The notes below the pieces were generated by a model. The model did no database searches. It had not been told where the DNA came from and saw nothing but the letters and a program-made list of their open reading frames with translations. Positions 1,587-19,947 of a stretch of 23,701 bases of DNA are shown here, one piece after another; positions within the stretch are counted from its first letter, which is position 1; each line of letters opens with the position of its first letter. The stretch is taken from positions 1 to 23,701 of the IMG/VR virus record IMGVR_UViG_3300032117_000156; one strand, 5' to 3'. The DNA comes from a virus. Position numbers and translations under genes: made by a program.

Positions 1587-1595
1587 TGATATCTC

Positions 1596-2051: not shown

Positions 2052-2057
2052 AAATGG

Positions 2058-2645
2058 TTATTGTGATTTAATAATATATTCTAAAGATGTTGCTGTAGTT
2101 GTAATATAGTTTAGTGATGCCATTGAGCTGTTTGCGGTCATGCTAAATGTTAAATCTGTTGTTGACGTTTCTGTATAATCTTCGTAGTACGAAACTGTAG
2201 ATCCTGCGGCATTGTAAGCAACAACAATATCGCCTGTGCGATGTTTTGTACCTTGGGTTAATGTATAAGTAATCACTGCATTGTTAGCAGAGATGCCTGC
2301 AATATTACCGGATGTACTTGCATTGAGAGCAACACCAGTGCTAGTTACACCCGATTGCAATGCAGAAATTTGCGAGTTGATAGTAGTAATGTTTCCCTGT
2401 AAAACTGTAACATTACTCTGTAAGGCTGTTACGTTGGCAGTAAGGGTATTAGTAAAATTAATAATACTAAACTGAGTTAAAATTTCAGTTGAGCCTACTG
2501 CGGGTGCTCCTTCAGCCAGTGTGCCGTTACCAATGTATAATTGTCTTGTATCATTGCTCCAAGCTAATTCACCGGATGCTAACTGTGGTAAGTCCTGTTT
2601 TAAACCACGTCGAACTTGTATTTGTGAAATTTGTAAAATTGCCAT
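2058..2645 (-). CDS. Tail-fibre/virion protein with major-tropism-determinant-like N-terminus
   Basis: Residues 1-50 (QISQIQVRRGLKQDLPQLAS, then GELAWSNDTRQLYIGNG) match the short N-terminal domain of phage major tropism determinants and related fibre proteins: an RRG segment, a GELAW segment, and a DTRQLYIGNG strand. Residues 60-105 form a Thr/Asn/Val-rich heptad-like stretch (LTANVTALQSNVTVLQGN), probably a trimeric coiled coil. The C-terminal 90 residues are Ser/Thr-rich beta sequence. This architecture fits a small virion fibre or fibre-attachment protein, likely trimeric. A T4-late-like element (TATAAATT, one mismatch) lies 15-22 bases upstream. The ligand cannot be inferred. Confidence 0.75.
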   Translation of the reverse strand: MAILQISQIQVRRGLKQDLPQLASGELAWSNDTRQLYIGNGTLAEGAPAVGSTEILTQFSIINFTNTLTANVTALQSNVTVLQGNITTINSQISALQSGVTSTGVALNASTSGNIAGISANNAVITYTLTQGTKHRTGDIVVAYNAAGSTVSYYEDYTETSTTDLTFSMTANSSMASLNYITTTATSLEYIIKSQ

Positions 2646-2659
2646 TTAACTCGAATCCT

Positions 2660-2667
2660 AATTTATA
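2660..2667 (-). promoter_or_regulatory. Possible late promoter (TATAAATT) for the fibre-type gene
   Basis: On the minus strand the octamer TATAAATT differs from the T4 late consensus TATAAATA only at the last base. It sits in the 36-nt gap before the ATG at 2645. A second near match (CTAAATAC) lies just upstream at 2670-2677. The late gene class of a structural protein agrees with it, but the mismatch keeps confidence low. Confidence 0.4.
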
Positions 2668-2681
2668 CTGTATTTAGCATT

Positions 2682-3668
2682 TTACAAAGTGTATTTCCAG
2701 TAATTTTTCAAAATGTGACTGCGATCCTCGCCGGTAATTGATCCGCCGTTGGGCCCGTTAAATCCACACATATTGCACACTTTTTCAGGAGTTAGTGTTC
2801 TAGCAAACCAGGACTGTATTTCTTCATCGGTACTGTCAGGACCCACTGTTTTATATTCGTTAAGATATGGTGCCCAGTCTGCGCGATCCTGTATGTTAAA
2901 CGTATTCAGTGTATGCTCTAATACTCCCATTGGAGGACACTTCCACATTTTTCCACGGTACAAAGTGATAAAATCATTGGTCTGGCAACTTTTAAAATTG
3001 CTTTCATACCACGTGTCATTATAATCATATACAGGATGCATTTCTTCGGCGTATCCTTCGTAATGCTTGCACCAGTGTAGTTTATGCTGTTCGCAAGTAG
3101 TAAATCCAATACGTGTGCTACGTCCATTAACTACTAAGTTAAACCATTGCTTGGTGTTTATATCTTTTTCATCTAGCCATAGGTTCCATACCGCAGAAGT
3201 TACACCCGGTAAACTTAAATGATATTCTAACACTTTCTGTTTAAGATTTTCAAAGCTGTTTATAACTTTACTTAGGTATGGCTCAGTTGCTGTTTGATAA
3301 CTAACTACCATGCTCATTGCAATGTCATTGGGATTACTGTCAGAAAATAACAAAGGAATATGATCAAGTAGCGTGTCTAGGTAATAGCCATTGGTATTTA
3401 AACTAACCGGAACAGTAGGTCCCCATATACGGCGAATTGCCTGTGCCCATTCTGTAAACTCGGGATGCAGTAGCGGTTCACCGCCAAACAAAGTAATTGC
3501 ATTAGGTTGTAATTTTGTAGACCAAAACTCTAGCCAGTCTATACTTTCATCAATCCTAACTATACCCTTGATATTTTTATGATTACTGTGTGTCATACAA
3601 CCGGCGCAGGCTAAGTTGCAACTTCTAATAATAGGTATATCTAAATGTTCTATTTTAATTTTGTTCAT
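2682..3668 (-). CDS. Radical SAM protein with C-terminal Cys motifs
   Basis: This is a radical SAM enzyme: CNLACAGC (C17, C21, C24; CX3CX2C) would bind the SAM-cleaving 4Fe-4S cluster, and LFGGEP (G62-P65) is the SAM-binding motif. Further cysteines near the C-terminus (CQTNDF...WKCPP, then VCNMCGFNGPNGG) resemble SPASM/twitch auxiliary-cluster sites. At 328 residues it has the size of a radical SAM core plus a short auxiliary domain. The start codon overlaps the stop of the nuclease gene by one base (TAATG), so the two are probably translationally coupled under the sigma70-type promoter at 4386-4414. The substrate is unknown; peptide, glycan or nucleotide modification are all possible. It is one of three radical SAM proteins here. 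Confidence 0.88.
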   Translation of the reverse strand: MNKIKIEHLDIPIIRSCNLACAGCMTHSNHKNIKGIVRIDESIDWLEFWSTKLQPNAITLFGGEPLLHPEFTEWAQAIRRIWGPTVPVSLNTNGYYLDTLLDHIPLLFSDSNPNDIAMSMVVSYQTATEPYLSKVINSFENLKQKVLEYHLSLPGVTSAVWNLWLDEKDINTKQWFNLVVNGRSTRIGFTTCEQHKLHWCKHYEGYAEEMHPVYDYNDTWYESNFKSCQTNDFITLYRGKMWKCPPMGVLEHTLNTFNIQDRADWAPYLNEYKTVGPDSTDEEIQSWFARTLTPEKVCNMCGFNGPNGGSITGEDRSHILKNYWKYTL

Positions 3669-4378
3669 TAATTGCTCAAATAATATAGTTCTACTTTTTT
3701 AGTCCACTCGTCGGTCCAGTACTTAAACTCGTCACCTTCAACAACAAATTCTAAGTATTCTGGTGTGGTAAAGGTACCATCTTCTAGTTCCTTGGGTTGT
3801 ACAGCCATCATAATGACACCGCAATCAATGTCAGTACCGTGTGTAACATTGTGTGCTTGAGCGTATGCAGCCAATTGAATAAAGTAGTCACTGATGTATT
3901 CACGCTTCTTAACCTTGTTGCTTTGTTTAAAGTCGATGATAGCAGGTTTGCCTTTCCATACACCAACACAATCTGTTGTGCCAGCATATAACCCACTATA
4001 ATAAACAGGTACCTCAACTCCCCAGAACTCATCAACATTTACCAGGCCCTTCATAATAACTTCAGCGGCCATAAACCAACTTGGGTGGGCAAAGGGGTTA
4101 GCGGGCAAAGGTTTCATGTCATCGCTAAGTGCGTAAGATTCTAAGTAGGCATGCATACGTGTTCCACGATTAGCGGCTTCTGTAGTAATCTGCTGTGCTC
4201 TAACCTCGCCAACATTCTTACGCCAGTTAGCCAATGCGGCTTTAGATTCTTCTGATTTGGTTCTGTCTAGGATAGTAGTGACGCTAGGTACTTTGTCTCC
4301 GCCGGGTAAAGCATAATGGCGTTTACCTTCGATTGTGGTGCGACTAATTGCTGCGTAGTTAAATTTTTGGGTAATCAT
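3668..4378 (-). CDS. PD-(D/E)XK nuclease of the RecB/Cas4-like type
   Basis: The motifs of the RecB/Cas4/lambda-exonuclease-like fold appear in order: RGTRMHAYLE (G72, H76), E122 in GVEVP, D136 in YAGTTDC, the catalytic D149-x-K151 in AIIDFKQS, and Q168xxxY172 in YFIQLAAYAQ. It is probably a DNA exonuclease or processing nuclease for replication, recombination or host DNA breakdown. I place the start at the ATG at 4378 (236 aa). A TTG 12 codons upstream coincides with the -35 box of the promoter, and its leader peptide does not resemble the family. No ribosome-binding site precedes the ATG, and the -10 box ends 7 nt before it, so the transcript may be leaderless. It is coupled to the radical SAM gene. 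Confidence 0.88.
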   Translation of the reverse strand: MITQKFNYAAISRTTIEGKRHYALPGGDKVPSVTTILDRTKSEESKAALANWRKNVGEVRAQQITTEAANRGTRMHAYLESYALSDDMKPLPANPFAHPSWFMAAEVIMKGLVNVDEFWGVEVPVYYSGLYAGTTDCVGVWKGKPAIIDFKQSNKVKKREYISDYFIQLAAYAQAHNVTHGTDIDCGVIMMAVQPKELEDGTFTTPEYLEFVVEGDEFKYWTDEWTKKVELYYLSN

Positions 4379-4385
4379 AGTAGTA

Positions 4386-4414
4386 ATTATAGCATCTCTA
4401 ATGACAATAATCAA
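4386..4414 (-). promoter_or_regulatory. Sigma70-type promoter for nuclease and radical SAM genes
   Basis: The minus strand reads TTGATT (4414-4409), a 17-nt spacer, then TATAAT (4391-4386) with an extended -10 (TGC before it). Both boxes and the spacing are near consensus. The predicted start of transcription falls at about 4378, the A of the nuclease ATG. It is a host-polymerase promoter, so early or middle expression is expected. Confidence 0.8.
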
Positions 4415-4420
4415 TAAATA
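4413..4420 (+). promoter_or_regulatory. Possible late promoter (AATAAATA) for SGNH-like gene
   Basis: AATAAATA differs from the T4 late octamer in the first base only and ends 5 nt before the ATG at 4426. In T4 the transcript starts about 6 nt after this octamer, so it would start at the ATG itself. It is back to back with the -35 box of the divergent nuclease promoter. Confidence 0.45.
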
Positions 4421-4425
4421 TTTTG

Positions 4426-5163
4426 ATGAAAACTCTAATAAGTGGCTGTAGCTTTACTCAATGGCCCGAATACCCAGGAGGTCCAAATATATGCTGGCCT
4501 GTTTACTTACAAAAACTTTTACCAAATAATCAATTAACTAGCATTGCAGAAGCAGCCGCAGGTAATCAATATATTTGCGATAGTGTAATAAGAGAAACAT
4601 TATTAAATCAATATGACCAAGTACTTGTCATGTGGTCTGGTGTAACCCGGTTAGATTATTTAACTAGCATAGAAGATCCTGCATGGAATAACTTGTTCGA
4701 TAGTTATGGGTTTTATCGTAGAATCCCCGGAGATAAACTAGGTTGGATCTTTAGTGGCGGCCAACTTGGTACTTGGTTCAAGCATCCTGTAGCACATAAG
4801 ATGTTTTACGAAATGTATAAGGTTAGTAGTGATCTAAGTCTGGCAACTATTAATCTAATGGAAATTATAAAACTACAAAACTATCTCAAGGCAAAAGGTA
4901 TACCATTTAAGTTTATGAGTTATATAAACTACTGGACTGAAGGTAAACATATAAGTCCCAACGGCGACTTTGGTTTGTCGGATATTCCCGAAGTGCAGTA
5001 TCTTATCAATGAAATAGATTTTGACCAATGGATTTTTGCAGATAATAAGCGTAAATGTATCTACGATGTTGCTAAAGAACTAAACAGTTTTGAAGCAGAT
5101 GGATTTCATCCCGGCCCTGCAGCACATCAAGCCTGGGCTGAATTAATTACTCGATCAATATGA
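4426..5163 (+). CDS. SGNH/GDSL-hydrolase-like protein
   Basis: The N-terminus (TLISGCSFTQWPEYPGG) has the block-I shape of SGNH hydrolases, with the candidate nucleophile S9 after a beta strand. The C-terminus (EADGFHPGPAAHQAWAE) carries the D-x-x-H-P block that supplies the catalytic Asp and His. The expected block II/III Gly and Asn are less clear, with GNQYICDS as the best candidate. Such enzymes are esterases or acetyl-transfer/removal enzymes on glycans and lipids. I use the ATG at 4426 rather than the TTG one codon earlier. No Shine-Dalgarno is visible. It is one of only four plus-strand genes, and its last 37 bases overlap the convergent glycosyltransferase-like gene. Catalysis is inferred, not certain. 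Confidence 0.72.
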   Translation: MKTLISGCSFTQWPEYPGGPNICWPVYLQKLLPNNQLTSIAEAAAGNQYICDSVIRETLLNQYDQVLVMWSGVTRLDYLTSIEDPAWNNLFDSYGFYRRIPGDKLGWIFSGGQLGTWFKHPVAHKMFYEMYKVSSDLSLATINLMEIIKLQNYLKAKGIPFKFMSYINYWTEGKHISPNGDFGLSDIPEVQYLINEIDFDQWIFADNKRKCIYDVAKELNSFEADGFHPGPAAHQAWAELITRSI

Positions 5164-6209
5164 CTGGCAGCAAATGCAGTCCAGTCGGTTGTCATAATAT
5201 GATTGTAGTTGTAATCTAATACCGGTTGTATAGTGTTGTACACTTCAAGTTGATCCATTGAACATAATTTCTTTACTTGTTCAAATGCTTGTGTGTATCG
5301 TTCTACAGCATCCTCGATTAAGTCGTAACTTTCATCAATTACACAATCAAAAGTTTTAAAGCCTTGTGCTTTTAAATTATATAAGAACTTGTATCCAGTA
5401 AATGCAATAAACAATCTGCGGGCAATCATTGGTTTGGCTGTTTTTTCACTGTAGAAACTTAATGTATTATCGTGGTCAGTTTCTGCAACAATACTGTACG
5501 CTGTATCATTAAAAACACTCACAGGAATCACACGACTCAATCCAGTATGCACCCCATAATACTTTACTGGGCCGGCTGTACCGGGTTGTTGTTCACCTAT
5601 AACTTCAACACCGGGTTCCCAGATAAAATAATCTTTTGCGTAAAACTCTTCATCGTTCCATTTACCACCGTAGGTTAGTATAAACTTATCTTGCAGGCTG
5701 TTTGTTTGTACTGCATCATACACAAAATCCCTATGTGGCTTGGGACTGCCTAATAGGGCATCAAACATTTTAGGTTTACTAACACCATACGTAATTTCTG
5801 CCAATTGCAATGGTAATTGCTTGTACAGTGACGTAGTTGTTTTGAACCAATCGCCCCAGAATATAAGACGATCATTCATTTCTGTGTTTACTTGCCCGGG
5901 TACAATCCAGTAGACGTTATCGTAGTGGCATTTATCCCATATCGTCCAGTGGAAATTATGTAACTCACTTTCAAAAGAAAAAACAAGATTACTAATATTA
6001 CTAAGTTTGTTTATTTTATCTTCAAAGCCCTGGTATGCAGCGCAATTGATATCGTGGTCGCAATGCAGGCGGTGCATAGTAAATGCAATCTTTGTGTCAG
6101 CAGTGGTATCTCTGTATTCTTCAAAACTGTGCGATACAGTATAATCACCTAAATTTAATTTAGGCAACCATTCAAGGTCAATGATTGTACTATCGCTGTA
6201 TACCAACAT
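5127..6209 (-). CDS. Glycosyltransferase-like protein, 360 aa
   Basis: The C-terminal third carries a pattern common to fucosyltransferase/exostosin-like phage proteins: SFYSEKTAKPMIARRLFIAF, then the GYKFLYNLKAQGFKTF segment and a Glu/Asp-rich helix (DESYDLIEDAVERYTQAF). The SEKTAKP segment would bind the nucleotide-sugar phosphate. The N-terminal half (IAFTMHRLHCDHDINCAAYQ and VYWIVPGQVN) looks like a Rossmann-type acceptor domain. It is probably a cytoplasmic enzyme that adds a sugar to a phage or host glycan. Its ATG overlaps the iscA stop by one base (TAATG), so it is the last gene of the isc operon. Its 3' end overlaps the convergent SGNH-like gene. Family assignment is by signature only; it could be a non-catalytic relative. 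Confidence 0.7.
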   Translation of the reverse strand: MLVYSDSTIIDLEWLPKLNLGDYTVSHSFEEYRDTTADTKIAFTMHRLHCDHDINCAAYQGFEDKINKLSNISNLVFSFESELHNFHWTIWDKCHYDNVYWIVPGQVNTEMNDRLIFWGDWFKTTTSLYKQLPLQLAEITYGVSKPKMFDALLGSPKPHRDFVYDAVQTNSLQDKFILTYGGKWNDEEFYAKDYFIWEPGVEVIGEQQPGTAGPVKYYGVHTGLSRVIPVSVFNDTAYSIVAETDHDNTLSFYSEKTAKPMIARRLFIAFTGYKFLYNLKAQGFKTFDCVIDESYDLIEDAVERYTQAFEQVKKLCSMDQLEVYNTIQPVLDYNYNHIMTTDWTAFAASHIDRVINSAQA

Positions 6210-6529
6210 TATATTCTAAAACTTTCTCCGCAGCCACATCTATCCTTTTCGTTGGAATTGATAAATTCAAATCCTTCATTGAGTCCCTGTTGAACATAAT
6301 CTATAGTAATGCCATCAACTATGGGTAGGCTTTTCTTATCCACAATAACGGTAGTATTATTATTCAACATAGATACATCGTCTGGCAGTACTGCATCTAC
6401 ATATTCTAACACATAAGCGAGCCCAGAGCAACCGGTTGTTTTAACTCCCACTCGAATACCTACGCCCGAGCCACGTTTGGTAATATTAGCCGAAATTCTT
6501 TTAGCTGCAGATTCAGTTATTATTATCAA
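6209..6529 (-). CDS. iscA: A-type Fe-S cluster carrier IscA
   Basis: IscA accepts or supplies Fe-S clusters (or iron) during cluster assembly and hands them to apo-proteins. The full-length 106-residue protein keeps all three ligand cysteines: C34 in TTGCSGLAYVLE, and C98 and C100 in DRCGCGESF at the C-terminus. It also keeps the EGLNEGF-type segment (QQGLNEGFEF). The wording is close to proteobacterial IscA (SGCSGMAYVLE, ECGCGESF), which points to capture from a host-like chromosome. Translation appears to start at a TTG at 6529 that overlaps the stop of the upstream small gene (TTGA), giving the N-terminus (M)IIITESAAKRI expected for the family. It sits in the sigma70-driven operon with the split iscU. 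Confidence 0.93.
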   Translation of the reverse strand: MIIITESAAKRISANITKRGSGVGIRVGVKTTGCSGLAYVLEYVDAVLPDDVSMLNNNTTVIVDKKSLPIVDGITIDYVQQGLNEGFEFINSNEKDRCGCGESFRI

Positions 6530-6717
6530 TGGCTTCGATTTTCGTTATCATACGATTCTAATACTGCTTTAAGCTCCGAGCATTGGTCGGAATGTTTACA
6601 CGGTTCTGCTGGTCGTTTCCAAATATTATGAAAATCTCCAAGGCAGAAACCTTCGTATGGTGTATGTTCCAATGGGCACCACGATTGAACTGCAATATCA
6701 ACATTGATTTGTGTCAT
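6526..6717 (-). CDS. Small Cys-rich protein between iscU and iscA, 63 aa
   Basis: The 63-residue protein has four cysteines (C14 in SWCPLEH, C25 in GFCLGDF, and C40 and C46 in PCKHSDQC) and several histidines, so it could bind a metal or a cluster. It has no signal peptide or membrane segment. It is not a ferredoxin, HscB or IscX by sequence. The ATG at 6717 has a clear GGGGA ribosome-binding site 10 nt after the iscU stop, and its stop overlaps the iscA start by 4 nt. Its place where bacteria carry isc accessory genes suggests a helper role, but I do not recognise it. Confidence 0.75.
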   Translation of the reverse strand: MTQINVDIAVQSWCPLEHTPYEGFCLGDFHNIWKRPAEPCKHSDQCSELKAVLESYDNENRSH

Positions 6718-6727
6718 AATTTATCCC

Positions 6728-6997
6728 CTAGTGTTTACTTCTGTAATCCGCTACAGCCGCTTTGATTGCATCTTCGGCCAAGATGCTACAGTGGATTTTA
6801 ACAGGCGGGAGCGCCAACTCTTGTGCAATCTCAGAATTTTTAATTTCCATTGCGGAGTCGAGCGTTTTGCCTTTAACCCATTCCGTGACCAGACTCGAGC
6901 TGGCAATGGCAGATCCACATCCGTAAGTTTTAAATTTTGCATCTACAATAATCCCATCTACTACCTTTATTTGTAACCGCATAACATCTCCGGTCAT
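6728..6997 (-). CDS. iscU: IscU scaffold, C-terminal part of split gene
   Basis: IscU is the scaffold on which 2Fe-2S clusters are built from IscS sulfur. This 89-residue frame holds the C-terminal two-thirds: the conserved Asp (D4 in GDVMRLQIKV), the second cysteine (C27 in KTYGCGSAIASSSLVTEWVK), the chaperone-recognition motif LPPVK (63-67) and the third cysteine (C70 in KIHCSI). The distance C27-C70 equals that in E. coli IscU. The frame opens with ATG at 6997, overlapping the stop of the N-terminal part as ATGA. A second ATG at 6982 has a good GGAG site 5 nt upstream. Compared with intact IscU about 8 extra bases lie at the junction. It may be a two-chain scaffold, a broken gene or a sequence error. 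Confidence 0.88.
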   Translation of the reverse strand: MTGDVMRLQIKVVDGIIVDAKFKTYGCGSAIASSSLVTEWVKGKTLDSAMEIKNSEIAQELALPPVKIHCSILAEDAIKAAVADYRSKH

Positions 6998-7107
6998 CCG
7001 CAAGCTGGGGCACCAACTACACCGGTCCCAACTTGCGCTGTCTCCTCTAATTTCCCAACATTTCTGGGATTTTCATAATGGTCAATGACCTTTGCACTAT
7101 AGGACAT
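6994..7107 (-). CDS. iscU: IscU scaffold, N-terminal part of split gene (37 aa)
   Basis: The 37-codon frame encodes the exact N-terminal part of IscU: MSYSAKVIDHYENPRNVG, then GTGVVGAPACG with the first ligand cysteine (C36), and then TGA. In normal IscU the next residues are DVM(K/R)LQIKV, which are encoded directly downstream in the -1 frame. The ATG at 7107 has a strong AGGAG ribosome-binding site 6 nt upstream. The stop overlaps the ATG of the C-terminal part as ATGA, the arrangement used for coupled reinitiation. All other ligand residues are kept in the downstream part, so the damage, if it is damage, is recent. Confidence 0.85.
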   Translation of the reverse strand: MSYSAKVIDHYENPRNVGKLEETAQVGTGVVGAPACG

Positions 7108-7223
7108 ATTTGTCTCCTAATATAGATTTTACTACATCAGTGGGTTGATAGCTATCCCACTTCTTACGATTTTCTTCACCTTTAATAAATTGTATATTAT
7201 TTCTTTGTCTGAATATGCCATAG
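7098..7223 (-). other. Interval with possible decayed short gene upstream of iscU
   Basis: This interval has no intact gene with a normal start. One frame without ATG, GTG or TTG reads NYGIFRQRNNIQFIKGEE and then WDSYQPTDVVKSILGDKYVL, stopping just inside iscU, which looks like the end of a real protein. Another frame gives a 29-residue peptide from an ATG at about 7222 (MAYSDKEIIYNLLK...) with an AAGG-type site. Joining the two would need a frame change. It may be a frameshifted small gene; no family is recognised. Confidence 0.3.
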
Positions 7224-7535
7224 TTACCTTTTACACATTGAATCTGTTGGACTACAAGTTTTGTTGTTATCTGTGGTAGGGTTATTAGAATTTGTTGGGT
7301 TGGTTGTTGTGGGCACGGGTGCAGCAGGCTTGGGTGCTACCGCCGTCGGTGGTGCAGATTTAGGAGCCAGTATTGGGGTCGGTAACGGCTTAGGTGCCTG
7401 TGGTGGCGCACTAAGTGGTCGAGGTTGCGGCGCAGTTGCAGGAGGTTTTTTAACGCTGTCTATCAACTGTTGTAAACCGGCTGCCATTCCGGTGCCAGCA
7501 ATCAGCATCATAAGCATAAAAGAAATGCGTCTCAT
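7224..7535 (-). CDS. Exported proline-rich small protein, 103 aa
   Basis: The N-terminus (MRRISFMLMMLIAGTGMAAG) is a typical Sec signal peptide, with likely cleavage after the GMAA region. No lipobox cysteine is present. The mature part is a Pro/Ala-rich linker (PPATAPQPRPLSAPPQAPKP) running into an Asn/Thr-rich tail with two cysteines (C94 and C101 in TCSPTDSMCKR). Such proteins span the periplasm. Spanin-like or envelope-modifying roles are conceivable, but there is no direct evidence. The ATG overlaps the stop of the upstream exported protein as ATGA, so the two are coupled. Confidence 0.75.
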   Translation of the reverse strand: MRRISFMLMMLIAGTGMAAGLQQLIDSVKKPPATAPQPRPLSAPPQAPKPLPTPILAPKSAPPTAVAPKPAAPVPTTTNPTNSNNPTTDNNKTCSPTDSMCKR

Positions 7536-7837
7536 TGGTTAGGAACCAATACAGTTTTGTAACAATTACAATTGGCATCTAATATTGCTTCCCAGTGGTA
7601 GCCAGCTGGCTGTGGATATGCCGGTGGTGCTGGCATAGGTTGTTGAATATATACCGGAGTCTGTTGAATAATAACCGGAGGACGAGTTGCTTCATATACA
7701 ATAGCACCACCAATTAGTGCAGGAACTGCCCAGCCGTATCCGGGGTGGTAGTAGTAGGCTCCGCCGCCGTGGCGCCGCCGGTCGGCATGCGCTAAGGAAC
7801 AGATACTTAATAATAAAACAAGTATAATTTTTTTCAT
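7532..7837 (-). CDS. Exported small protein with Gly/Tyr-rich and hydrophobic segments, 101 aa
   Basis: A Sec signal peptide (MKKIILVLLLSICSLAHA) is followed by a basic stretch (DRRRHGGG), a Tyr-rich turn (AYYYHPGYGW), a short hydrophobic glycine-containing helix (AVPALIGGAIVYEA), and a Pro/Gln-rich region (IIQQTPVYIQQPMPAPP). It ends with a small Cys pair (ANCNCYKTV). It resembles small bacterial envelope proteins more than virion proteins, suggesting a host-derived accessory gene. It is the first gene after the strong sigma70-type promoter. Its ribosome-binding site AAGGAG lies at the predicted very 5' end of the mRNA and inside a palindrome. The function is unknown. Confidence 0.75.
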   Translation of the reverse strand: MKKIILVLLLSICSLAHADRRRHGGGAYYYHPGYGWAVPALIGGAIVYEATRPPVIIQQTPVYIQQPMPAPPAYPQPAGYHWEAILDANCNCYKTVLVPNQ

Positions 7838-7846
7838 TACGATTCT

Positions 7847-7864
7847 CCTTATACCATTATAAGG
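7847..7864. promoter_or_regulatory. Perfect palindrome over -10 box, +1 and ribosome-binding site
   Basis: CCTTATA-CCAT-TATAAGG is a perfect 7-bp inverted repeat. It overlaps the -10 box and transcription start of the isc operon promoter and includes the AAGG of the Shine-Dalgarno. It could be a repressor operator. As RNA only its 3' arm would be transcribed from this promoter, so an RNA hairpin would matter only for transcripts coming from upstream. Confidence 0.5.
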
Positions 7865-7884
7865 TATTTATTTTAAAAAGTCAA
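7856..7884 (-). promoter_or_regulatory. Strong sigma70-type promoter of the isc operon
   Basis: The minus strand has TTGACT (7884-7879), a 17-nt spacer, and TATAAT (7861-7856), 11 of 12 consensus bases. Transcription should begin near 7850, leaving a leader of about 12 nt that starts with the AAGGAG ribosome-binding site of the 7837 gene. A late-like AATAAATA (7872-7865) lies inside the spacer, so late use is also possible. Confidence 0.82.
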
Positions 7885-7895
7885 TTGGTTTTTGG

Positions 7896-8321
7896 TTAAG
7901 CGCCGGCAGCTCGTTTAGCCATTGAGCTAACTACTTTAGCTGGGTCGCCTGGAGCCGCATCTTGTGCGCCTAGTGGATCAGAATCATCAACGGTATTTTC
8001 TGGTAAGGCCAAATAGATATACTTGGCTCCAGTTTTTTCATCGTCTTTGATATCTTTAATTAGACTTTTTACAGTTTCGTTGTGCTCATTTGCAGCTTCA
8101 AGAGCAGCAAAATTGAACGCTTCATTGCCTGGGATGGCACGAACACGTTCAATAACTGTATCAACAGCAACACGTGGTGTTACTGCATTGCTTTGTTGCG
8201 CTTCGTGACGTAACCATTCTAGAGTAGTAAGTAAAGCAGAATCTCCACGAGTCTCTGCTTCATCTTCAATTGCGCTACCTGGAACTGTGGTATCTTCTAG
8301 AATGATTTCGTTTATACGCAT
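7896..8321 (-). CDS. Putative head-internal protein with capsid-targeting-like N-terminus, 141 aa
   Basis: The N-terminus MRINEIILE/DTTV matches the pattern of T4 capsid-targeting sequences, which prohead protease gp21 removes after (L/I)-x-E; here I7-L8-E9. The rest is a mostly helical acidic protein (LLTTLEWLRHEAQQ, TVKSLIKDIKDDEK) with a short beta hairpin (GAKYIYLALPEN) and an Ala-rich tail. No enzyme motif is seen. It follows the 8323 gene after one base, so both form a late unit under the promoter at 9064-9071. It could be an internal head or core protein. The targeting reading is an inference from the N-terminus. Confidence 0.75.
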   Translation of the reverse strand: MRINEIILEDTTVPGSAIEDEAETRGDSALLTTLEWLRHEAQQSNAVTPRVAVDTVIERVRAIPGNEAFNFAALEAANEHNETVKSLIKDIKDDEKTGAKYIYLALPENTVDDSDPLGAQDAAPGDPAKVVSSMAKRAAGA

Positions 8322-8322
8322 A

Positions 8323-9036
8323 TTAACGACGCTCGCGGCCTAATTCTTCTTCGCCACCGGCAGCAGCATCAGTAGCGCCAAATTCGTCGCCATCGAAGTC
8401 TGATTCAGGAGGAGCGCCTAAGTCGCCTTCTGGAGCACCACCTAAGTCTGCACCGAGTTCTTCACCACCAAAGCCGCCTTCGTCACCGCCTAAATTCATA
8501 TCACCGGCTGGAGCTTCTTCGCCTGCCAATTGACGTACTGCTGTATCGCTTGATTCACGACCAGACTGTAGTGCTTGATATAAACTAGTCAATACCGGAG
8601 CAATAGCACTTTTAAATGCTTCTGCTTCTGTTGCACCAATTTGATCACGGATTGTGTCAACAAGTGCAGGGATTTGTTCGTTTTGTACTTTAGATACTTT
8701 TTCTAACATGTCTTGTAGACTGTCAACAATATCTTTAGCGGCTAGAACTGCTTCGCTCTTGCCCATTGCGCTTTCAAATAAACCTTGTTCGCTTGACATC
8801 CAACGATCTAGGCCTTCTTTTACTAACATTAATTCCATGTACTTACTATTCTTTTCAGCTGTATGCGAGCCAAAAGATTTCTTAATAGCAGTAATGTTTT
8901 CAGCAAGTGCTTGGCTTAAACGTTCGGCTTTAGCATAAGTTAAGTTATCATAGTCGACTGTGAAGCCAAAGCGACTTTCCATAACTTTATTAATTTTTTG
9001 CGGTGTTACCGCGGTGTGCATTTCAGAGAGTCTCAT
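8323..9036 (-). CDS. Conserved T4-type structural/assembly protein, coiled coil with acidic tail, 237 aa
   Basis: Residues 30-150 are long amphipathic helices (AKAERLSQALAENITAIKKS, KDIVDSLQDMLEKVSKVQ, QIPALVDTIRDQIGATEAEA), probably coiled coil. The last 70 residues are acidic and Gly/Ala-rich (LGGDEGGFGGEELGADLGG), ending in a basic GRERR. I recall proteins of this layout as conserved hypothetical or structural proteins of T4-like marine phages. A scaffold or prohead-core role fits but is not shown. It has its own late promoter (CATAAATA) and an AGGA ribosome-binding site. The start MRLSEMHTAV resembles its neighbours but lacks the (I/L)-x-E cleavage site. Confidence 0.8.
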   Translation of the reverse strand: MRLSEMHTAVTPQKINKVMESRFGFTVDYDNLTYAKAERLSQALAENITAIKKSFGSHTAEKNSKYMELMLVKEGLDRWMSSEQGLFESAMGKSEAVLAAKDIVDSLQDMLEKVSKVQNEQIPALVDTIRDQIGATEAEAFKSAIAPVLTSLYQALQSGRESSDTAVRQLAGEEAPAGDMNLGGDEGGFGGEELGADLGGAPEGDLGAPPESDFDGDEFGATDAAAGGEEELGRERR

Positions 9037-9063
9037 TTGTTTATATTCCTAAACTTTATGTAG

Positions 9064-9071
9064 TATTTATG
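9064..9071 (-). promoter_or_regulatory. Late promoter (CATAAATA)
   Basis: The minus strand reads CATAAATA, one base from the T4 late octamer, between the stop of the 9073 gene and the ATG at 9036. It gives a leader of about 21 nt with an AGGA ribosome-binding site. Confidence 0.6.
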
Positions 9072-9072
9072 T

Positions 9073-9609
9073 CTAATCCCAGACTTTGGCTAACTTTGCA
9101 TATAGGTGTATTTGCGATACTTTGTTCCTAGCAATCGTTAACTTAGTCTCGGCCATTTCCAACCTGGCCACTCGCGAATCTACAAGCAAATAGTCCTTAT
9201 TTTTACGTGCCGCTTCAATTATGTGTCGTAAAGATAACATATCTGTATAGTTTTTATTTATTTCTCTATCAAGGATGATGATTTCATCTGCTGAATGATA
9301 TCGACGCTTAATAGTATATACAGTATACAACATAGCACTAATTTTGTTCTCAAATATGTGAACTAATTCGTGGTTATGATTGTATACTTCGCAGGTTTTA
9401 TTAGGATGTGTAATTAATCTATATTGCCCAATTTTATAGCCGTTGTTGACTGGAATACATAGTGGGCTTGTTTGAGCCTGTTGGATTTTACCTAACTCAC
9501 GTGTGGTCCACTGTTTAATGTAGTCTGTTGCGGCGTTAGATACTGCTCGGATTTCGTGCTTCGCTGGGTTAGCGTATTTTTTTCGTGTATGTGATTTGAC
9601 CATTGTCAT
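9073..9609 (-). CDS. Conserved hypothetical phage protein, 178 aa
   Basis: A basic N-terminus (MVKSHTRKKYANPAKHEIRA) precedes a helix, a beta-rich middle (GYKIGQYRLITHPNKTCEVY, then the HELVHIFENK segment), and a C-terminal helical region with long charged helices (SRVARLEMAETKLTIARNKV). The middle resembles a small nucleic-acid- or peptide-binding fold, but no named family is recognised. Two ATGs (9609 and 9603) are possible; the first overlaps the end of the upstream gene by 41 nt. The promoter of the next gene lies directly after its stop. Confidence 0.72.
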   Translation of the reverse strand: MTMVKSHTRKKYANPAKHEIRAVSNAATDYIKQWTTRELGKIQQAQTSPLCIPVNNGYKIGQYRLITHPNKTCEVYNHNHELVHIFENKISAMLYTVYTIKRRYHSADEIIILDREINKNYTDMLSLRHIIEAARKNKDYLLVDSRVARLEMAETKLTIARNKVSQIHLYAKLAKVWD

Positions 9610-9778
9610 TTCGACGTAACAGGATGTCCTGCGTCGTTAATTGATTTGCAATTACTTGCTCTCGTTCATCGAGTTTATTCTTTGTAATACTAGGTTCATG
9701 TTGAAAACGTCCTAGTAGATCGGCTTGTTCGTTTGTTATTGCAACTTGTATGTTGCTGAGTAATTCTACTATTTTCAT
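9569..9778 (-). CDS. Small phage protein, 69 aa
   Basis: This 69-residue protein is mostly helical (MKIVELLSNIQVAITNEQAD and KLDEREQVIANQLTTQDILL), ending in a short beta tail (GQITYTKKIR). Its ATG overlaps the stop of the upstream membrane protein as ATGA, and its 3' end runs 41 nt into the next gene. The N-terminus looks like the capsid-targeting-type starts nearby but has N rather than E at the cleavage position. The function is unknown. Confidence 0.65.
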   Translation of the reverse strand: MKIVELLSNIQVAITNEQADLLGRFQHEPSITKNKLDEREQVIANQLTTQDILLRRNDNGQITYTKKIR

Positions 9779-10053
9779 TTTAAAAGGTGTAATACTACAC
9801 CAATAAGTCCTGTCATTAATGCTACAAGTACCGCAGTACCAATGGTAATTAATGTTTTATTGCTTTCACCGCCTACTTTACCTAGGCTGTCTTTGATGTC
9901 AATAATATGACCTTCTAAGCTGTCCATCCGTTTATCTAAATTTTCCAGTTTAAATTCCAAGTTAGAGTATCGTTCGGCACAGAGTTCTACGTGCGCTTCC
10001 AGGCTCTTTTTTTCAATATCGGTTGTTGTGGACATTATCCTATTCGCTTTCAT
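9775..10053 (-). CDS. Coiled-coil protein with C-terminal membrane anchor, 92 aa
   Basis: Residues 12-60 form a coiled coil (SLEAHVELCAERYSNLEFKL, then LDKRMDSLEGHIIDIKDSLG). Residues 67-91 are one hydrophobic transmembrane helix (TLITIGTAVLVALMTGLIGV). This tail-anchored layout is common among small T4-like phage proteins of unknown function. It could act in lysis control, superinfection exclusion or as a membrane tether. An internal ATG at 10035 (MSTTTDIEKK) may be the real start, since the family usually begins there as far as I recall. Neither start has a well-spaced ribosome-binding site. Confidence 0.7.
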   Translation of the reverse strand: MKANRIMSTTTDIEKKSLEAHVELCAERYSNLEFKLENLDKRMDSLEGHIIDIKDSLGKVGGESNKTLITIGTAVLVALMTGLIGVVLHLLK

Positions 10054-10129
10054 TTAGCGATGCATTTGTTAATTGAGCCTGTTTGTGCCTTAATAATGAG
10101 CCATAATGGTGCCTAAGCATCTATACTAT

Positions 10130-10558
10130 TTAGCTAGGAATGATTTGTTTAAAGTATATGTTTTTGATTGTGCCATATGGATAAAAGATAGGTAGCATAA
10201 AACGTGCTGTTTCATTTAATCCTGTAATAATAGGCACTTGCTCAAAGTCTTGCATCAGCCCGCCCAGGGGTTTATCGGACATATCATATATACCCGACAC
10301 TTCAACAGCCCATTGCCACATCCAAATTTTTTGTTGTCCAGTGTAAAAGTCGCCAAACTCTAAATTACTCAATTCAAGTTCGGCAGTTATAGGTTCATGT
10401 ATGTGCTGTGGCTGTGTTCGTAACCCGATACATTGTAATACTGTTTCCCAATTACGTTGTTGGTTACGGTCTGTACTGTTGTTGTCCCCGCGAGTCATAC
10501 CAGTGGCTGTAATATCTATTAGACTGTACCCCTGGAAGAAATATAAGTTGCTGGACAT
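10130..10558 (-). CDS. Conserved hypothetical T4-type phage protein, about 142 aa
   Basis: The protein begins MSSNLYFFQGYSLIDITATG and contains QRNWETVLQCIGLRTQPQHI and a Trp/Phe-rich segment (QKIWMWQWAVEVSGIYD). It is soluble, with no catalytic motif I can name, and resembles conserved hypothetical proteins of T4-like phages. I choose the ATG at 10558 rather than the one at 10564, which falls on the last base of a late-like box (ACTAAATA, 10571-10564). That box ends 5 nt before the chosen ATG, so transcription would start at the codon itself. A terminator for the upstream gene separates it from the gene at 10626. Confidence 0.7.
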   Translation of the reverse strand: MSSNLYFFQGYSLIDITATGMTRGDNNSTDRNQQRNWETVLQCIGLRTQPQHIHEPITAELELSNLEFGDFYTGQQKIWMWQWAVEVSGIYDMSDKPLGGLMQDFEQVPIITGLNETARFMLPIFYPYGTIKNIYFKQIIPS

Positions 10559-10563
10559 AAACA

Positions 10564-10571
10564 TATTTAGT
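10564..10571 (-). promoter_or_regulatory. Possible late promoter (ACTAAATA), leaderless arrangement
   Basis: ACTAAATA matches the T4 late octamer at 6 of 8 bases, including the TAAATA core, and ends 5 nt before ATG 10558. It lies immediately after a terminator, where a new promoter is needed. Confidence 0.4.
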
Positions 10572-10576
10572 GGCCA

Positions 10577-10602
10577 TAAAAAAACGCACTATAAAGTGCG
10601 TT
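10577..10602 (-). terminator. Rho-independent terminator after the 10626 gene
   Basis: On the minus strand an 8-bp stem (AACGCACT / AGTGCGTT) with a 4-nt loop (TTAT) is followed directly by a run of T. It lies 24 nt past the stop of the 10626-11027 gene and ends that transcript. Confidence 0.88.
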
Positions 10603-10625
10603 CTTTTGTTAGTTTAAAAAAGCTA

Positions 10626-11027
10626 TTAAGCTAATTTGAAACCTGTTGTACTTGTAACAGTAACAGCGTTAGCCCATACGTTACCTGTACCTAATGTTGC
10701 ACTAGCGTTAGCCAATGTAGCAATAGCTGTAGTATGAGTTGTATCTGAACCGCCTGTAGATTCAACTAAAACGCTTAAACGATCTGTATCAACTTGATAC
10801 ATAACGATTGTTGAATCAATCGCTAGTTCGCGTAAAATTGCTTCTACTGGACCACCAGTAGCTAAGTCTGTTGAAGCAAAAACTTGACTCTTGCCTAAAA
10901 CAATTTTAATTGCTGTTGGGTTTTTTGTTAAACCTGTAGCGATTAATGAACCTAGTGTACCTGTGTAACTTGCGTCAACGTTGTTAACGCCATTTGCATC
11001 ACCTGCATAACGTGTTTGGATTGCCAT
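10626..11027 (-). CDS. Probable abundant virion protein, 133 aa
   Basis: The sequence is Ala/Thr/Val-rich and beta-like, with little charge (VDASYTGTLGSLIATGLTKN, GTGNVWANAVTVTSTTGFKL). That composition is typical of head-decoration or tail-associated virion proteins; no specific family is recognised. It is a single-gene transcription unit with an exact late promoter (TATAAATA, 11068-11075), a strong AGGAG ribosome-binding site 8 nt before the ATG, and its own terminator at 10577-10602. This combination suggests high late expression. Mass spectrometry of virions would be expected to find it. Confidence 0.75.
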   Translation of the reverse strand: MAIQTRYAGDANGVNNVDASYTGTLGSLIATGLTKNPTAIKIVLGKSQVFASTDLATGGPVEAILRELAIDSTIVMYQVDTDRLSVLVESTGGSDTTHTTAIATLANASATLGTGNVWANAVTVTSTTGFKLA

Positions 11028-11067
11028 TTTTAAATCTCCTTAATATATGTGCATCTCTGCATACATT

Positions 11068-11075
11068 TATTTATA
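11068..11075 (-). promoter_or_regulatory. Late promoter (TATAAATA)
   Basis: An exact T4-type late octamer lies on the minus strand, 40 nt upstream of the ATG at 11027. The leader carries an AAGGAG ribosome-binding site. Confidence 0.82.
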
Positions 11076-11106
11076 CTTTTATAAAAAAAATGTTATTTTA
11101 GCTACT

Positions 11107-12177
11107 CTATTTGTTAAAGTGTGCTGCGCCAAATACACCGCGATTGACCAGCTTGATCATTCCTGCTGTGGGGCTATTGAATACAAAGCCCTCTCCTGCT
11201 TTATGACCGCCAGTCCACTGTTCAAAACCCTGTACTTGAGGCTCTAATTGAGCCGCTAAATTAGTTTTTAGTGCATAAATGGCGTTCCAAATAGCCTTTA
11301 ATGCTTCAAACCCTTGTGCGTTGGTATATAGATAGCCATCTTCGTTTTCGCCAACTAATTTCTTAAATTGCTGTGCAGATATATTATGTTGTAGCCAAGG
11401 AACAATTTCTTCATTGGTTTGTGCTGTGATCTTGTGGTTAAAATACTTTTGTATCGCGGCCTTAGCAACACTTTGCAAGCCAGCTAAAAACTCATCGGAC
11501 AATTTGCCATACTGTGTAACTGCCTTGGTAGCAGCTCCAACTAACTGCACAGGTGTGTTTAATTTAAATTTTATACCAGCAGTAGGACTTAGTATTGCTA
11601 CGTTGCCTTTGTTGGCTAGGCCAGTTTTGCCATCCCATGGAGTACCATTCATTTGGTGTACTGCCAAGATGCCAACTTTACCTGCAATCAATTGACCAAT
11701 TGCAGATTTAACCGGAACATGATATTCCACTGTAGTTGGGCTGAATATAAACATACCGTTCTGTGGCTGTAGTTCGCCGACTGACATTAAATCGCCTTTA
11801 AATATCGCTCGTTCTGTTACTGCGGCTTTTAACCCATTCCACACCAATGCAATCTTAGGATATAGATCGGGACGTGCTGTACGTGATGACTTCATTGTAG
11901 TGTCGTATACTTCCCAGTCCTTTGCACTCTTGGCAAAGAAACCTTCAGGCATATATTTGTCATTGATAAAGAATTCGCCAGCAGGTGTATAACCAAATAT
12001 TAATGCAATGCCGCCATCCCACTTAATACTAACGGAGCCGGGATTGGCAATAACTTCTTGTAGGCCTCGAACATACTTGGCCGCGCTGGCACTACCATCA
12101 AATATACTATCTTCTGGGTGCGGAATGCGTGTTGGTGCAGCAGCTTCAAACAGGTTATCTATAAATTCTAATTTCAT
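11107..12177 (-). CDS. DNA/RNA-ligase-like nucleotidyltransferase (DUF6267-like) with capsid-targeting-like N-terminus
   Basis: Motifs of the covalent nucleotidyltransferase superfamily (ligases and capping enzymes) appear in order: motif I K52-W-D-G in VSIKWDGG, a motif-III-like FKGDLM (126-131), motif IV EGFVF (329-333), and motif V MIKLVNR (340-346). K52 would carry the AMP. The opening PHPEDSIFDGSASAAKYVRG resembles a domain I know from cyanophages as DUF6267. The span from motif I to IV is longer than in classical ligases, implying an insertion. The N-terminus MKLEFIDNLFE/AAAP fits the T4 capsid-targeting sequence (L-x-E, then A). The ATG overlaps the upstream stop by 4 nt. Ligation of nicked DNA or tRNA after injection is a hypothesis only. 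Confidence 0.8.
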   Translation of the reverse strand: MKLEFIDNLFEAAAPTRIPHPEDSIFDGSASAAKYVRGLQEVIANPGSVSIKWDGGIALIFGYTPAGEFFINDKYMPEGFFAKSAKDWEVYDTTMKSSRTARPDLYPKIALVWNGLKAAVTERAIFKGDLMSVGELQPQNGMFIFSPTTVEYHVPVKSAIGQLIAGKVGILAVHQMNGTPWDGKTGLANKGNVAILSPTAGIKFKLNTPVQLVGAATKAVTQYGKLSDEFLAGLQSVAKAAIQKYFNHKITAQTNEEIVPWLQHNISAQQFKKLVGENEDGYLYTNAQGFEALKAIWNAIYALKTNLAAQLEPQVQGFEQWTGGHKAGEGFVFNSPTAGMIKLVNRGVFGAAHFNK

Positions 12178-13526
12178 TTAAAATAACCCTTAACCATATC
12201 TAAACCTTGTTGTATTTTTTCTCTATCGCTATTAGCACGTGCAATAGCATCTGGTGTTGTAGCTTTATCACGTTTTTTACCGGCAATATCTATTTGTGCT
12301 TTTTCGTCGTAGCGTTGCAGGAACTTGGTTAAGAAGTCTTGCCCTGACAGGAAACCTGCCAAGTCGCCTTGACCGAACATATCATTCATGTCACAACTTT
12401 CAGCAAAGCCTTTAATACCCTGTACCAATTTACTAATCTTAACATCATTGACGTCATTGCCGGGATTTTGCTTTAATAGTGGACTAACCTTGGGATTCTT
12501 AATACCCAGGTTCTTGGCCAGATACATGAATGTATCATAGATAAATGTTGTTGGGCTAGTTGTAACTGTGACTACCTCTGTGTCTTTTTGTTTACTAAAA
12601 GGAACGTGTTGGCCATCTTGTACTTTTAATTGTACGCCAGCATGTTGAATACTTAGATCAAGTAGTTCTCCTAGTACGCTAAACATATTGCCATGCAATA
12701 AGCCTTTAACTCCGCGTTCGGGAGTAACACGACTCGCACCCCATTGTTCTAACCGCTCTGGGTGCCACATAAAATCTACTTGTACAAATTGGTTGTTACC
12801 CAGGGCAAAGATAGGATGTCCTGCTTTACTTTCGCTTGTATCTACATAAGGAGCATGGCCTTGTTTAACAAAGTCATCAGCCAGCTTGTTCCAGTATGCT
12901 GTAAATTGTCCGTAACTTTGACCCGCTGTTTCTGGACCAATCATTTGTAAATCAATATCACCATATACTTTGTCAGGATTTTCCTGAGTATCAGCTTCGT
13001 GATGTGCGCTGGATCCTGTGGGACGTCCGCGACGTACTGGACCCAATCCGTGTGGCTTTAAATACGCATTAAAGTCTGCAACAAAACGGTCTACTACTTG
13101 CAGGGCTACTGCAACAATCCGAGGGTGTAGAACTGTACCTTGTGTTAAGGTTGTGTCCCAGCCACCTTCCCATAGTCGACCTTCTTCGCCGCGATTCTTG
13201 TCCCAGAAGTATTTGCCAGCATCGGTTTGTTCCGAACTGCGTTCAATTTTAAAACCTAGGCTTTTTACATAATCATACATGATTGCAGCTATGCCTTGCC
13301 CGCGATACTTGTCGTCTACTGCCAAATCATAAGGCACCATAACGTTGCCATCTCGATCAAACTCTGCGTATCCTAGTCTCCGTCCGTTTGATGATGCATA
13401 AACACTTGCATTTTTGCTATTAGTGTTGATACTTACTTGAATACCATCAACCTCTGCTGTTTTATTAATCAACGCAGGTAGACTTGAATCTGAGTTCCAC
13501 TCAAGAATAATATCTCTTATTTTCAT
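12174..13526 (-). CDS. GNAT acetyltransferase-like plus nucleotidyltransferase-like fusion with capsid-targeting-like N-terminus
   Basis: The N-terminus MKIRDIILE/WNSD fits a prohead-protease target (I7-L8-E9). Residues 28-110 look like a GNAT fold: beta strands, then DLAVDDKYRGQGIAAIMYDY with the acetyl-CoA loop R75-G-Q-G78. Residues 135-300 have the polymerase-beta-type nucleotidyltransferase motif: G171-S172, VYGDIDLQMIG with D190-x-D192, and a third acidic residue D251 in NQFVQVDFMW. The C-terminal 130 residues are helical (MNDMFGQGDLAGFLSGQDFL). Start and stop overlap both neighbouring genes by 4 nt. An injected enzyme that modifies nucleic acid or protein is possible; the substrates are unknown. 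Confidence 0.82.
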   Translation of the reverse strand: MKIRDIILEWNSDSSLPALINKTAEVDGIQVSINTNSKNASVYASSNGRRLGYAEFDRDGNVMVPYDLAVDDKYRGQGIAAIMYDYVKSLGFKIERSSEQTDAGKYFWDKNRGEEGRLWEGGWDTTLTQGTVLHPRIVAVALQVVDRFVADFNAYLKPHGLGPVRRGRPTGSSAHHEADTQENPDKVYGDIDLQMIGPETAGQSYGQFTAYWNKLADDFVKQGHAPYVDTSESKAGHPIFALGNNQFVQVDFMWHPERLEQWGASRVTPERGVKGLLHGNMFSVLGELLDLSIQHAGVQLKVQDGQHVPFSKQKDTEVVTVTTSPTTFIYDTFMYLAKNLGIKNPKVSPLLKQNPGNDVNDVKISKLVQGIKGFAESCDMNDMFGQGDLAGFLSGQDFLTKFLQRYDEKAQIDIAGKKRDKATTPDAIARANSDREKIQQGLDMVKGYFK

Positions 13527-14290
13527 ATCTGATGGCCTAGCTTTCTAAACCATGCAGCTGTTCCCGGTGCTACGTCTTCGGGAAGGGTTAGTAACCCCTT
13601 GGCTTGGTCTTGTTTGGCTTGCGCTAACTTGCCTTCGCGGTCGGGGTCACTGGCTAATGCTTTTAATACAGAAGCTACTGAGTTTAAATCTGCGGCGTGT
13701 GCGCCCGGGTTCAAAAGTACTTTTGCGGCTGCTTCACGGGTGTCTGCGACTACGGAGTTGTCGTCCCGGCGCATTACTGTACCACCAAATGCATCTACTT
13801 TAAGACCTAAAAATTTACCAATACTGTTTAATAGAATGAACAATTGATTGCCTTTGAATGCTGGATCATCGTACATGCCACGTGGGCCATGCTGATGCCA
13901 GTCGGCAACTCTTTTAGCATCGGGTATGATCATTAAATCTACTTGTGCATATAATGTCTTACCATCTGCTAGTTTGTAAGGAACATCAACGTGTACGTTG
14001 CGACCTTTTACTGCTACTGCATAACCTTTAGCTTGGAAGTATTGTGCTAATGCTTGTTTAGCCTGCTTCTCATCTGCTACACCAAAGTTCTTTACTGTGA
14101 CAGCTTGATCTAAAAACAAATCAATATCTCCACTTGCTACTTTATAACCAGCACTACCAATATCTGCCATGACATGACGCTGTAGTCCACTTGGTAGATC
14201 TCGTTTAATTGTGTCTACTACTGCGGCAACATTTTCTTTTGCCACATCGCTTGTATTATCGAATACATTTCCACCTTCGTATAGGTACAT
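13523..14290 (-). CDS. Polymerase-beta-type nucleotidyltransferase-like protein, 255 aa
   Basis: The minimal nucleotidyltransferase signature is clear: G45-S46 in MADIGSAGYK, D55-x-D57 in ASGDIDLFLD, and the third metal-binding D118 in LYAQVDLMII. The preceding helix (NVAAVVDTIKRDLPSGLQRH) and following helix (KQAKQALAQYFQAKGY) fit the fold. Family members add nucleotides to RNA, proteins or small molecules. It is a relative of the nucleotidyltransferase part of the next gene, suggesting duplication and divergence. The ATG overlaps the upstream stop by one base (TAATG) and its stop overlaps the next ATG by 4 nt. The N-terminus (MYLYE/GGNVF) has an L-x-E at positions 3-5, but no full targeting sequence. 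Confidence 0.8.
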   Translation of the reverse strand: MYLYEGGNVFDNTSDVAKENVAAVVDTIKRDLPSGLQRHVMADIGSAGYKVASGDIDLFLDQAVTVKNFGVADEKQAKQALAQYFQAKGYAVAVKGRNVHVDVPYKLADGKTLYAQVDLMIIPDAKRVADWHQHGPRGMYDDPAFKGNQLFILLNSIGKFLGLKVDAFGGTVMRRDDNSVVADTREAAAKVLLNPGAHAADLNSVASVLKALASDPDREGKLAQAKQDQAKGLLTLPEDVAPGTAAWFRKLGHQI

Positions 14291-15081: not shown

Positions 15082-15319
15082 TTTTCATTCTCCGTACACC
15101 GCGTTTAAATTTCTCTGGTTCCTGGGTACGGATTGAATTGATTAATCGTCGTTCCAGCTCTCCTGCTTGCTCGGCATCGTAATTTTCACGTATATAATTG
15201 ATTAGATTGATTGCTCCAGCGATTACGTTGGAGGCACGGCTTTCCACAAGATTCTCACGATCTTTGTGTACTAGCAACGTGTCTAGTTCGTCTAATATGC
15301 TACGGGCCTTCTTTTGCAA
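15071..15319 (-). CDS. Small conserved helical phage protein, 82 aa, TTG start
   Basis: An all-helical protein (ARSILDELDTLLVHKDREN, SNVIAGAINLINYIRENY, GELERRLINSIRTQEPEKF) with a basic C-terminus (KRGVRRMKSED). I recall similar small proteins in T4-like phages without known function. No ATG is available; the TTG at 15319 is set by GGAG 6 nt upstream and by the exact late promoter TATAAATA at 15343-15350. It heads the late operon running to 11107, so it may be connected with head assembly, but this is only context. Confidence 0.75.
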   Translation of the reverse strand: MQKKARSILDELDTLLVHKDRENLVESRASNVIAGAINLINYIRENYDAEQAGELERRLINSIRTQEPEKFKRGVRRMKSED

Positions 15320-19932: not shown

Positions 19933-19947
19933 CTGTATAGTATACAG
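19933..19947. promoter_or_regulatory. Perfect palindrome over the primase promoter -10 box
   Basis: CTGTATA-G-TATACAG (plus strand) is a perfect 7-bp inverted repeat around one base. It covers the -10 box and the start region, as expected for a repressor operator. It resembles a LexA box (CTGT-N8-ACAG) but has N7 spacing. Confidence 0.5.

Follow-up and report, generated by a model that had tools for sequence, protein, structure and literature searches.

This locus raises the question of why a palindrome should lie across both the core of a promoter and the ribosome-binding site downstream of it. We analyzed a 23.7-kb record (23,701 nt, referred to here as the window) from an uncultured phage of a family of large lake and freshwater phages. 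On its minus strand, CCTTATA-N4-TATAAGG (7847-7864) links the -10 hexamer, the predicted start site and the Shine-Dalgarno (SD) sequence of a sigma70-type promoter, an arrangement that had been claimed in the first-pass annotation and was confirmed by the positions of the elements (Table 1). The promoter has a 17-nt spacer between -35 and -10, and the ATG of the first gene is at 7837 (minus strand). It had also been described as near-perfect, and we found it to be the strongest of 70 promoter-like sites (score 11/12) in a scan of bases 1-20000. The gapped palindrome is found at a single place in the 23.7-kb record, and there were no occurrences of the reversed pattern. When the -10, the late-like box and the SD were held fixed and the other 17 bases were permuted, the stem in the window had p = 0.005 (0.007 in another run). 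On its own, this is a modest excess over chance, and the predicted energy of the window hairpin alone is only -4.7 kcal/mol.

Table 1. Coordinates of the isc promoter, its palindrome and other features of the window.
Feature	Position	Strand	Remarks
-35 hexamer TTGACT	7879..7884	-	TTGAC retained in most relatives
Late-like box AATAAATAC, T4 late TATAAATA type	7864..7872	-	within the spacer
Palindrome left arm CCTTATA	7858..7864	-	
-10 hexamer TATAAT	7856..7861	-	
Palindrome loop ATGG	7854..7857	-	
Palindrome right arm TATAAGG	7847..7853	-	overlaps SD and predicted sigma70 start (~7849, placed by spacing)
Shine-Dalgarno AAGGAG	7845..7850	-	
Operon gene 1, 101 aa	7532..7837	-	signal-peptide-like N-terminus
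Operon gene 2, 103 aa	7224..7535	-	proline-rich
iscU	6728..7108	-	split into two frames after ...GAPACG
iscA/HesB-like gene	6209..6529	-	Pfam PF01521, E 1.1e-15
Upstream gene, 141 aa	7896..8321	-	conserved, co-directional; possible read-through source
Radical-SAM protein and two sub-threshold ORFs	2682-3668, 15397-16419, 16403-17461		
Primase promoter palindrome CTGTATA-C-TATACAG	19933..19947	-	second instance

The first gene of the operon had been taken for an isc gene, which was wrong: the only Pfam match of the 101-aa product falls below the curated cut-off, and iscU and iscA come later. The gene order after it is the proline-rich gene, iscU, a 63-aa ORF and the iscA/HesB-like gene. Pfam and PHROG searches with the 103-aa proline-rich protein gave no match. 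Because iscU lies directly behind the element in some relatives, "isc promoter" is nonetheless a fair name. Neither the window DNA nor two upstream genes (tblastn) had a match in the named phage collection.

We collected relatives of the locus in protein scans that yielded 36, 18, 80 and 80 loci, with contigs partly shared between scans. The isc set consisted of 60 distinct rows, giving 50 distinct 36-nt cores and 31 representatives with <80% identity; L085 and L111 were dropped for having no credible promoter. The exact palindrome was retained only in near-identical contigs (L002, L003, L035, L036). The promoter was retained in most relatives, with different palindromes at the -10. The commonest was TACGTTA-TAA-TAGCGTA, and others included TACGCTA..TAGCGTA, TACACTA..TAGTGTG, TATACTAG..CTAGTATA and CGTTATA..TATAACG. 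A short stem and a 3-nt loop are also reminiscent of the hairpin promoter recognized by the N4 virion RNA polymerase. The first-pass annotation had named loss of the palindrome from relatives as a point against it. In the sense that matters it is not lost: the letters change, yet most relatives remain self-complementary there.

This conservation was evident in several measures. The stem score of the 31 representatives was 423, compared to 243 expected from the constrained shuffles (z 8.2; this and the other z values overstate independence because the representatives share descent), and 20 of them (18 on rerun) had p<0.05. In the main register (28 rows, with L080, L110 and ten off-register rows left out of the pair count), 83.2% of cells were paired, compared to 18.9-54.6% with slid partners, and the covariation score was 0.268, compared to 0.060-0.218 when slid. 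One pair in this register was UG in 9, UA in 6, CG in 5 and GC in 2 of the 28 rows. The structure is kept by pairing in the relatives. There were exceptions in which the promoter was kept without a stem (L137, L122, L093) or with a weak one (L105, L051, L153, L096). In L064, L079, L116 and L167 the start codon is 45-71 nt away, and yet the stem is still located at the -10. Universal hiding of the SD was ruled out, as the SD is distant from the stem in some relatives. Upstream of the 101-aa gene in L025/L182 and L027/L198, we also observed an 8-bp inverted repeat that takes up the spacer from -35 to -10; two of its base pairs differ by compensating changes between these two pairs of contigs.

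Chance and base composition could produce such stems, since the motifs of the -10 and the SD can in part pair with themselves: TATA pairs with TATA, the DNA is A+T-rich, and a smaller stem excess is present in other viruses. However, the excess persisted with the -10, late box and SD fixed (p 0.005 in the window, z 8.2 in relatives), and promoter-like matches within genes had z ~0. We consider this explanation improbable.

The kinds of mismatches in imperfect stems bear on whether the palindrome acts as DNA or as RNA. In a DNA dyad, G.T and A.C mismatches should be equally acceptable, whereas a hairpin in the sense-strand RNA should tolerate only G.U. The 14 imperfect isc stems had G.T in 7, A.C in 3, A.G in 3 and A.A in 1; in the null for imperfect stems, G.T was found in 132 of 1305 (~10%). 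At 125 other promoters, there were 11 G.T (3.3 expected) and 6 A.C (5.1 expected). At the primase promoter (see below) the counts were 4 G.T (1.5 expected) and 3 A.C (2.0 expected), and the stem z was 4.1 allowing G.T and 1.2 allowing A.C. The summed z values for the 125 other promoters are counter-evidence, as they were nearly alike (5.5 with A.C, 6.3 with G.T). The mismatch patterns fit a sense-strand RNA hairpin better than a DNA operator, and we regard such a hairpin as likely, though not proven.

An operator would be a site for a dimeric phage or host protein, bound to the dyad over the -10 and controlling early promoters. Repressor sites typically cover the -10 and start, as this dyad does, and a palindrome recurring at many promoters would fit. 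However, the arms have no common sequence across promoters or relatives and their changes compensate, and G.T is tolerated above A.C at both isc and primase. We found neither a shared arm sequence nor strand-symmetric mismatch tolerance, so that the shared sequence-specific site implied by the earlier annotation did not hold up, and an operator seems to us very improbable. The mismatches bear in the same way on a purely mutational origin, in which template switching between near-palindromic strands would perfect the arms without function. Perfect arms in many registers are as this process would leave them, but decay of such repeats should yield G.T and A.C equally and G.T dominates; we regard it as quite improbable.

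The dyad might also mirror an overlapping antisense -10, making a pseudo-symmetric bidirectional promoter. Such promoters are common in bacteria, according to parts of PMC12825309 and PMC10268837. Antisense scores at isc averaged little more than those of shuffled sequences (7.55 vs 6.96), and none of 31 reached 10; at other promoters the scores were 7.17 vs 7.03, and 4 of 125 reached 10. The arms lie largely beyond the -10, and no antisense -10 and -35 were found over the palindrome. This possibility is barely credible. The DNA operator, the bidirectional promoter and pure chance were each lowered in our estimation after these tests (nulls, mismatches, in-gene controls and antisense scores).

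The position of the arms relative to the predicted starts suggests another role. Because the left arm is upstream of these starts, only RNA derived from farther upstream would hold both arms. We propose, as the reading we favor but hold to be short of probable, that the palindrome is an RNA hairpin that filters transcripts by origin and forms only in read-through RNA from the upstream gene. Promoters within the palindrome would start RNA downstream of the left arm, and no hairpin would form. From the sigma70-type start (~7849), the RNA would begin at the SD, and from a late start at ~7859, directed by the AATAAATAC box, it would lack nearly all of the left arm. In read-through RNA, the hairpin would overlap or abut the ribosome-binding site and translation would be reduced; promoter-born RNA would be free of the hairpin and would remain translated. 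The same design appears at many other promoters of the family, including apparently leaderless ones. The start sites, the read-through and the reduced translation are the parts of this scheme that we infer.

We modeled the accessibility of start sites in such transcripts, with gene starts taken from mechanical ORFs and with predicted RNA starts. Opening the start site required 5.01 kcal/mol in read-through RNA, compared to 3.90 kcal/mol for shuffles (z 7.3, n = 101), and 1.87 kcal/mol in RNA truncated to begin where transcription is predicted to start. Occlusion was found with a co-directional upstream gene (z 8.1, n = 84) and was near zero with a divergent one (z 0.2, n = 14). The first set without isc and primase still had z 7.4 (n = 97). 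In a replication with 46 new promoters, z was 4.3 (co-directional 4.5, divergent 0.55). For the co-directional minus divergent difference, the one-sided p was 0.048 in the combined sets (115 vs 24) and 0.069 in the first set. There was no occlusion in 94 other viral contigs (z -0.8, n = 37), and T4 had z 1.5 (n = 15).

Among the isc representatives, 29 of the 31 were modeled, with opening costs of 4.00 for read-through, 2.59 for late and 1.82 for sigma70 transcripts against a null of 2.94 (z 4.1). In the window, AAGG of the SD sits in the right arm, and the opening cost of the SD in read-through RNA was 1.5-3.4 kcal/mol (p 0.14-0.72 over ten contexts, and 0.64 in a separate run), which is not above shuffles; the modeled late transcript was about as closed as the read-through RNA. 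As modeled, the T4-like reading discussed below rests on the family and less on the window copy.

The first-pass annotation had noted the late-like box in the spacer and suggested a second mode of use. This box is conserved at a fixed spacing and is nearly confined to the isc locus: TAAATA precedes the -10 by exactly 9 nt in 22 of the 31 representatives (38 of 48 cores), compared to just 5 of the 171 host-type promoters identified in seven relatives, 4 of which were isc. Late boxes cluster 20-29 nt ahead of ATGs in relatives, and also precede several other minus-strand genes in the window. By count, neither TAAATAC nor ATAAATA is enriched in the window; only their position stands out. A query with T4 gp55 had matches in 4 of 10 relative records. 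In L367, an ORF matching the PHROG late sigma (E 5.8e-81) adjoins an SbcD/gp47-like gene, and gp47 is likewise near gene 55 in T4. A gp55-like late sigma is thus encoded in relatives, outside the window fragment. Because the late box is conserved and a late-sigma homologue is present, it is plausible that the isc promoter serves as a dual early/late promoter. The hairpin as a general trait of late promoters was rejected (62 sites, z 0.3); 7 of these 62 sites had p<0.05, three of them isc. One exception is a cytidylyltransferase-like gene (L340:4608 and L356:13542), where a late box is combined with a long hairpin containing or adjoining the start codon, closely resembling the design of T4 gene e.

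The hairpin could instead be a 3'-end element of the transcript from the upstream gene, either a terminator that is weak or has decayed or a stabilizing or processing hairpin, and overlap the promoter only because intergenic space is short. Some relatives have full terminators at the same junction (L107, and L080 with a 14-bp stem, a T run and the -10 in the stem-loop), and elsewhere a stem with a T run carries the -10 in its left arm (L354, L452, L476, L490, L493). A 3'-end element would also account for stems far from the SD. However, unlike the hairpin of L080, those of the window and of the main class of relatives have no T run after the stem, and the window site lacks the G+C-rich stem and trailing T run of intrinsic terminators and is not among the listed terminator sites. 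A 7-bp AU-rich stem is weak for a 3'-end function, and occlusion of start sites is enriched independently. We judge a 3'-end role unlikely, though it deserves consideration.

A second palindrome lies at the primase promoter, where the -10 (TATACT, 19944-19939) is close to the ATG (19931) and the mRNA is apparently leaderless. The two palindromes had been said to share one position relative to the -10. Both do start 3 nt upstream of it, but their centers differ, being inside the -10 at primase and just downstream of it at isc. With the search limited to a -10 at 4-10 nt from the ATG, 53 of the 57 distinct sequences upstream of primase had a promoter; L392, L393, L424 and L447 were dropped for having no promoter, and L373, L376 and L409 for having no gene start in the locus. 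Among 31 representatives, the palindromes vary, the distance to the ATG is 5-8 nt, and 8 have p<0.05. These distances suggest that the primase mRNA is leaderless. The ATG is 5-8 nt after the -10 (peak at 6 nt) at 44 of the 171 host-type promoters in the seven relatives, suggesting that leaderless early mRNAs are widespread in the phage family. Parts of PMC5312081 describe phage transcripts as often leaderless, and leaderlessness alone is already known and hence not new.

Host-type promoters of the family, that of primase among them, repeatedly have a palindrome at the -10, which gives statistical backing to the earlier suggestion of one scheme for early operons. The 125 representatives without isc and primase had a stem z of 6.3, and 20 had p<0.05. 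In a replication with 46 promoters dissimilar to the first set, from eight further contigs, z was 5.4. Promoter-like matches inside genes had z values of 0.3 and 0.0 (150 each, of 255 and 216), and nine T4 promoters had z -0.5. The stem z was 3.15 (n = 37) in 94 other viral contigs that were chosen for a composite pattern; part of the stem excess is common to other viruses, beyond the lake-phage family. Terminator-like hairpins with T runs and a sigma70 -10 in the left arm were also seen shortly before a gene start (L354:8834, L338:10522, L452, L476, L490, L493), and in L354 at least, the right arm contains a possible SD.

Extended to the whole family, marking of transcripts by origin would mean that hairpins at most host-type promoters between co-directional genes silence run-on RNA and that each gene is translated only from RNA of its own promoter, often leaderless; we find this extension doubtful.

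Regulation of this kind has precedents. As described in parts of PMC3014915, a helix in the long early transcripts of T4 e, soc, 49 and I-TevI buries the start site. The DNA encoding the 5' strand of this helix contains the late promoter, and late RNA is free of the helix. Similar hairpins are reported in parts of PMC2988022 for I-TevII, I-TevIII, segB and Aeh1 mobE. The same parts describe seg43(25) of Aeromonas phage 25, in which a very stable hairpin abuts a free ribosome-binding site, with an effect that was not established. Compared with the T4 genes as presented there, the isc element is alike in that its 5' arm overlaps the promoter and would be lost from promoter-born RNA, in its T4-type late box, and in that similar structures are predicted in relatives. 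In contrast to them, the isc arm also contains a host-type -10 and forms only a short, weak hairpin. The habit moreover extends across the genome, apparently leaderless genes included, and is absent from ordinary late promoters of these genomes. The main class of relatives (TACGTTA-TAA-TAGCGTA followed by AGGAG) has the stem flush against an unpaired SD, like seg43(25) as described, but the isc hairpin is weak and overlaps the promoter. If the proposed filter holds, the isc element would be a variant of the T4 plan built around a host-type promoter, and not a proven member of it.

In the titles and abstract openings of the open-access literature on hairpins, late promoters and read-through and on leaderless RNA, there was no report of a genome-wide habit. 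In the parts of PMC3014915 and PMC2988022 cited above, the T4 device of a promoter within a hairpin is described for a few mostly late genes and for homing endonucleases. If genome-wide in large freshwater phages and valid for host-type promoters and leaderless mRNAs, it would be a compact insulation of neighboring genes without terminators or repressors.

Other features of the window concern Fe-S functions and mobile elements. One radical-SAM protein (PF04055 above the cut-off) shares the window with the isc genes, and two further ORFs have sub-threshold matches to radical-SAM or 4Fe-4S domains, hinting that the phage supplies its own Fe-S enzymes. A NUMOD3-containing ORF (20340-21155, plus strand), possibly a homing endonuclease, is antiparallel to and overlaps the gene start at 20426. 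In the window (6728-7240, minus strand) and in L011, L078, L111 and L172, iscU is divided into two frames behind the active-site PACG. In 7 of the 101 distinct iscU sequences, an insert of 7-8 nt introduces a stop codon (TGA, TAA or TAG); after it come GGAG-N5-ATG and the remaining IscU in another frame. As judged by eye, an ORF like an HNH-type homing endonuclease lies just upstream of iscU in L011, L172 and L078, and the window keeps the tail of such an ORF and a stray iscU start. Between L011 and L172, pS was 0.00 in the N-terminal half of iscU, which seems to travel with the endonuclease, like split genes described in parts of PMC2988022. In the C-terminal half, pS was 0.78 and pN was 0.09, values that clearly point to selection on that half.
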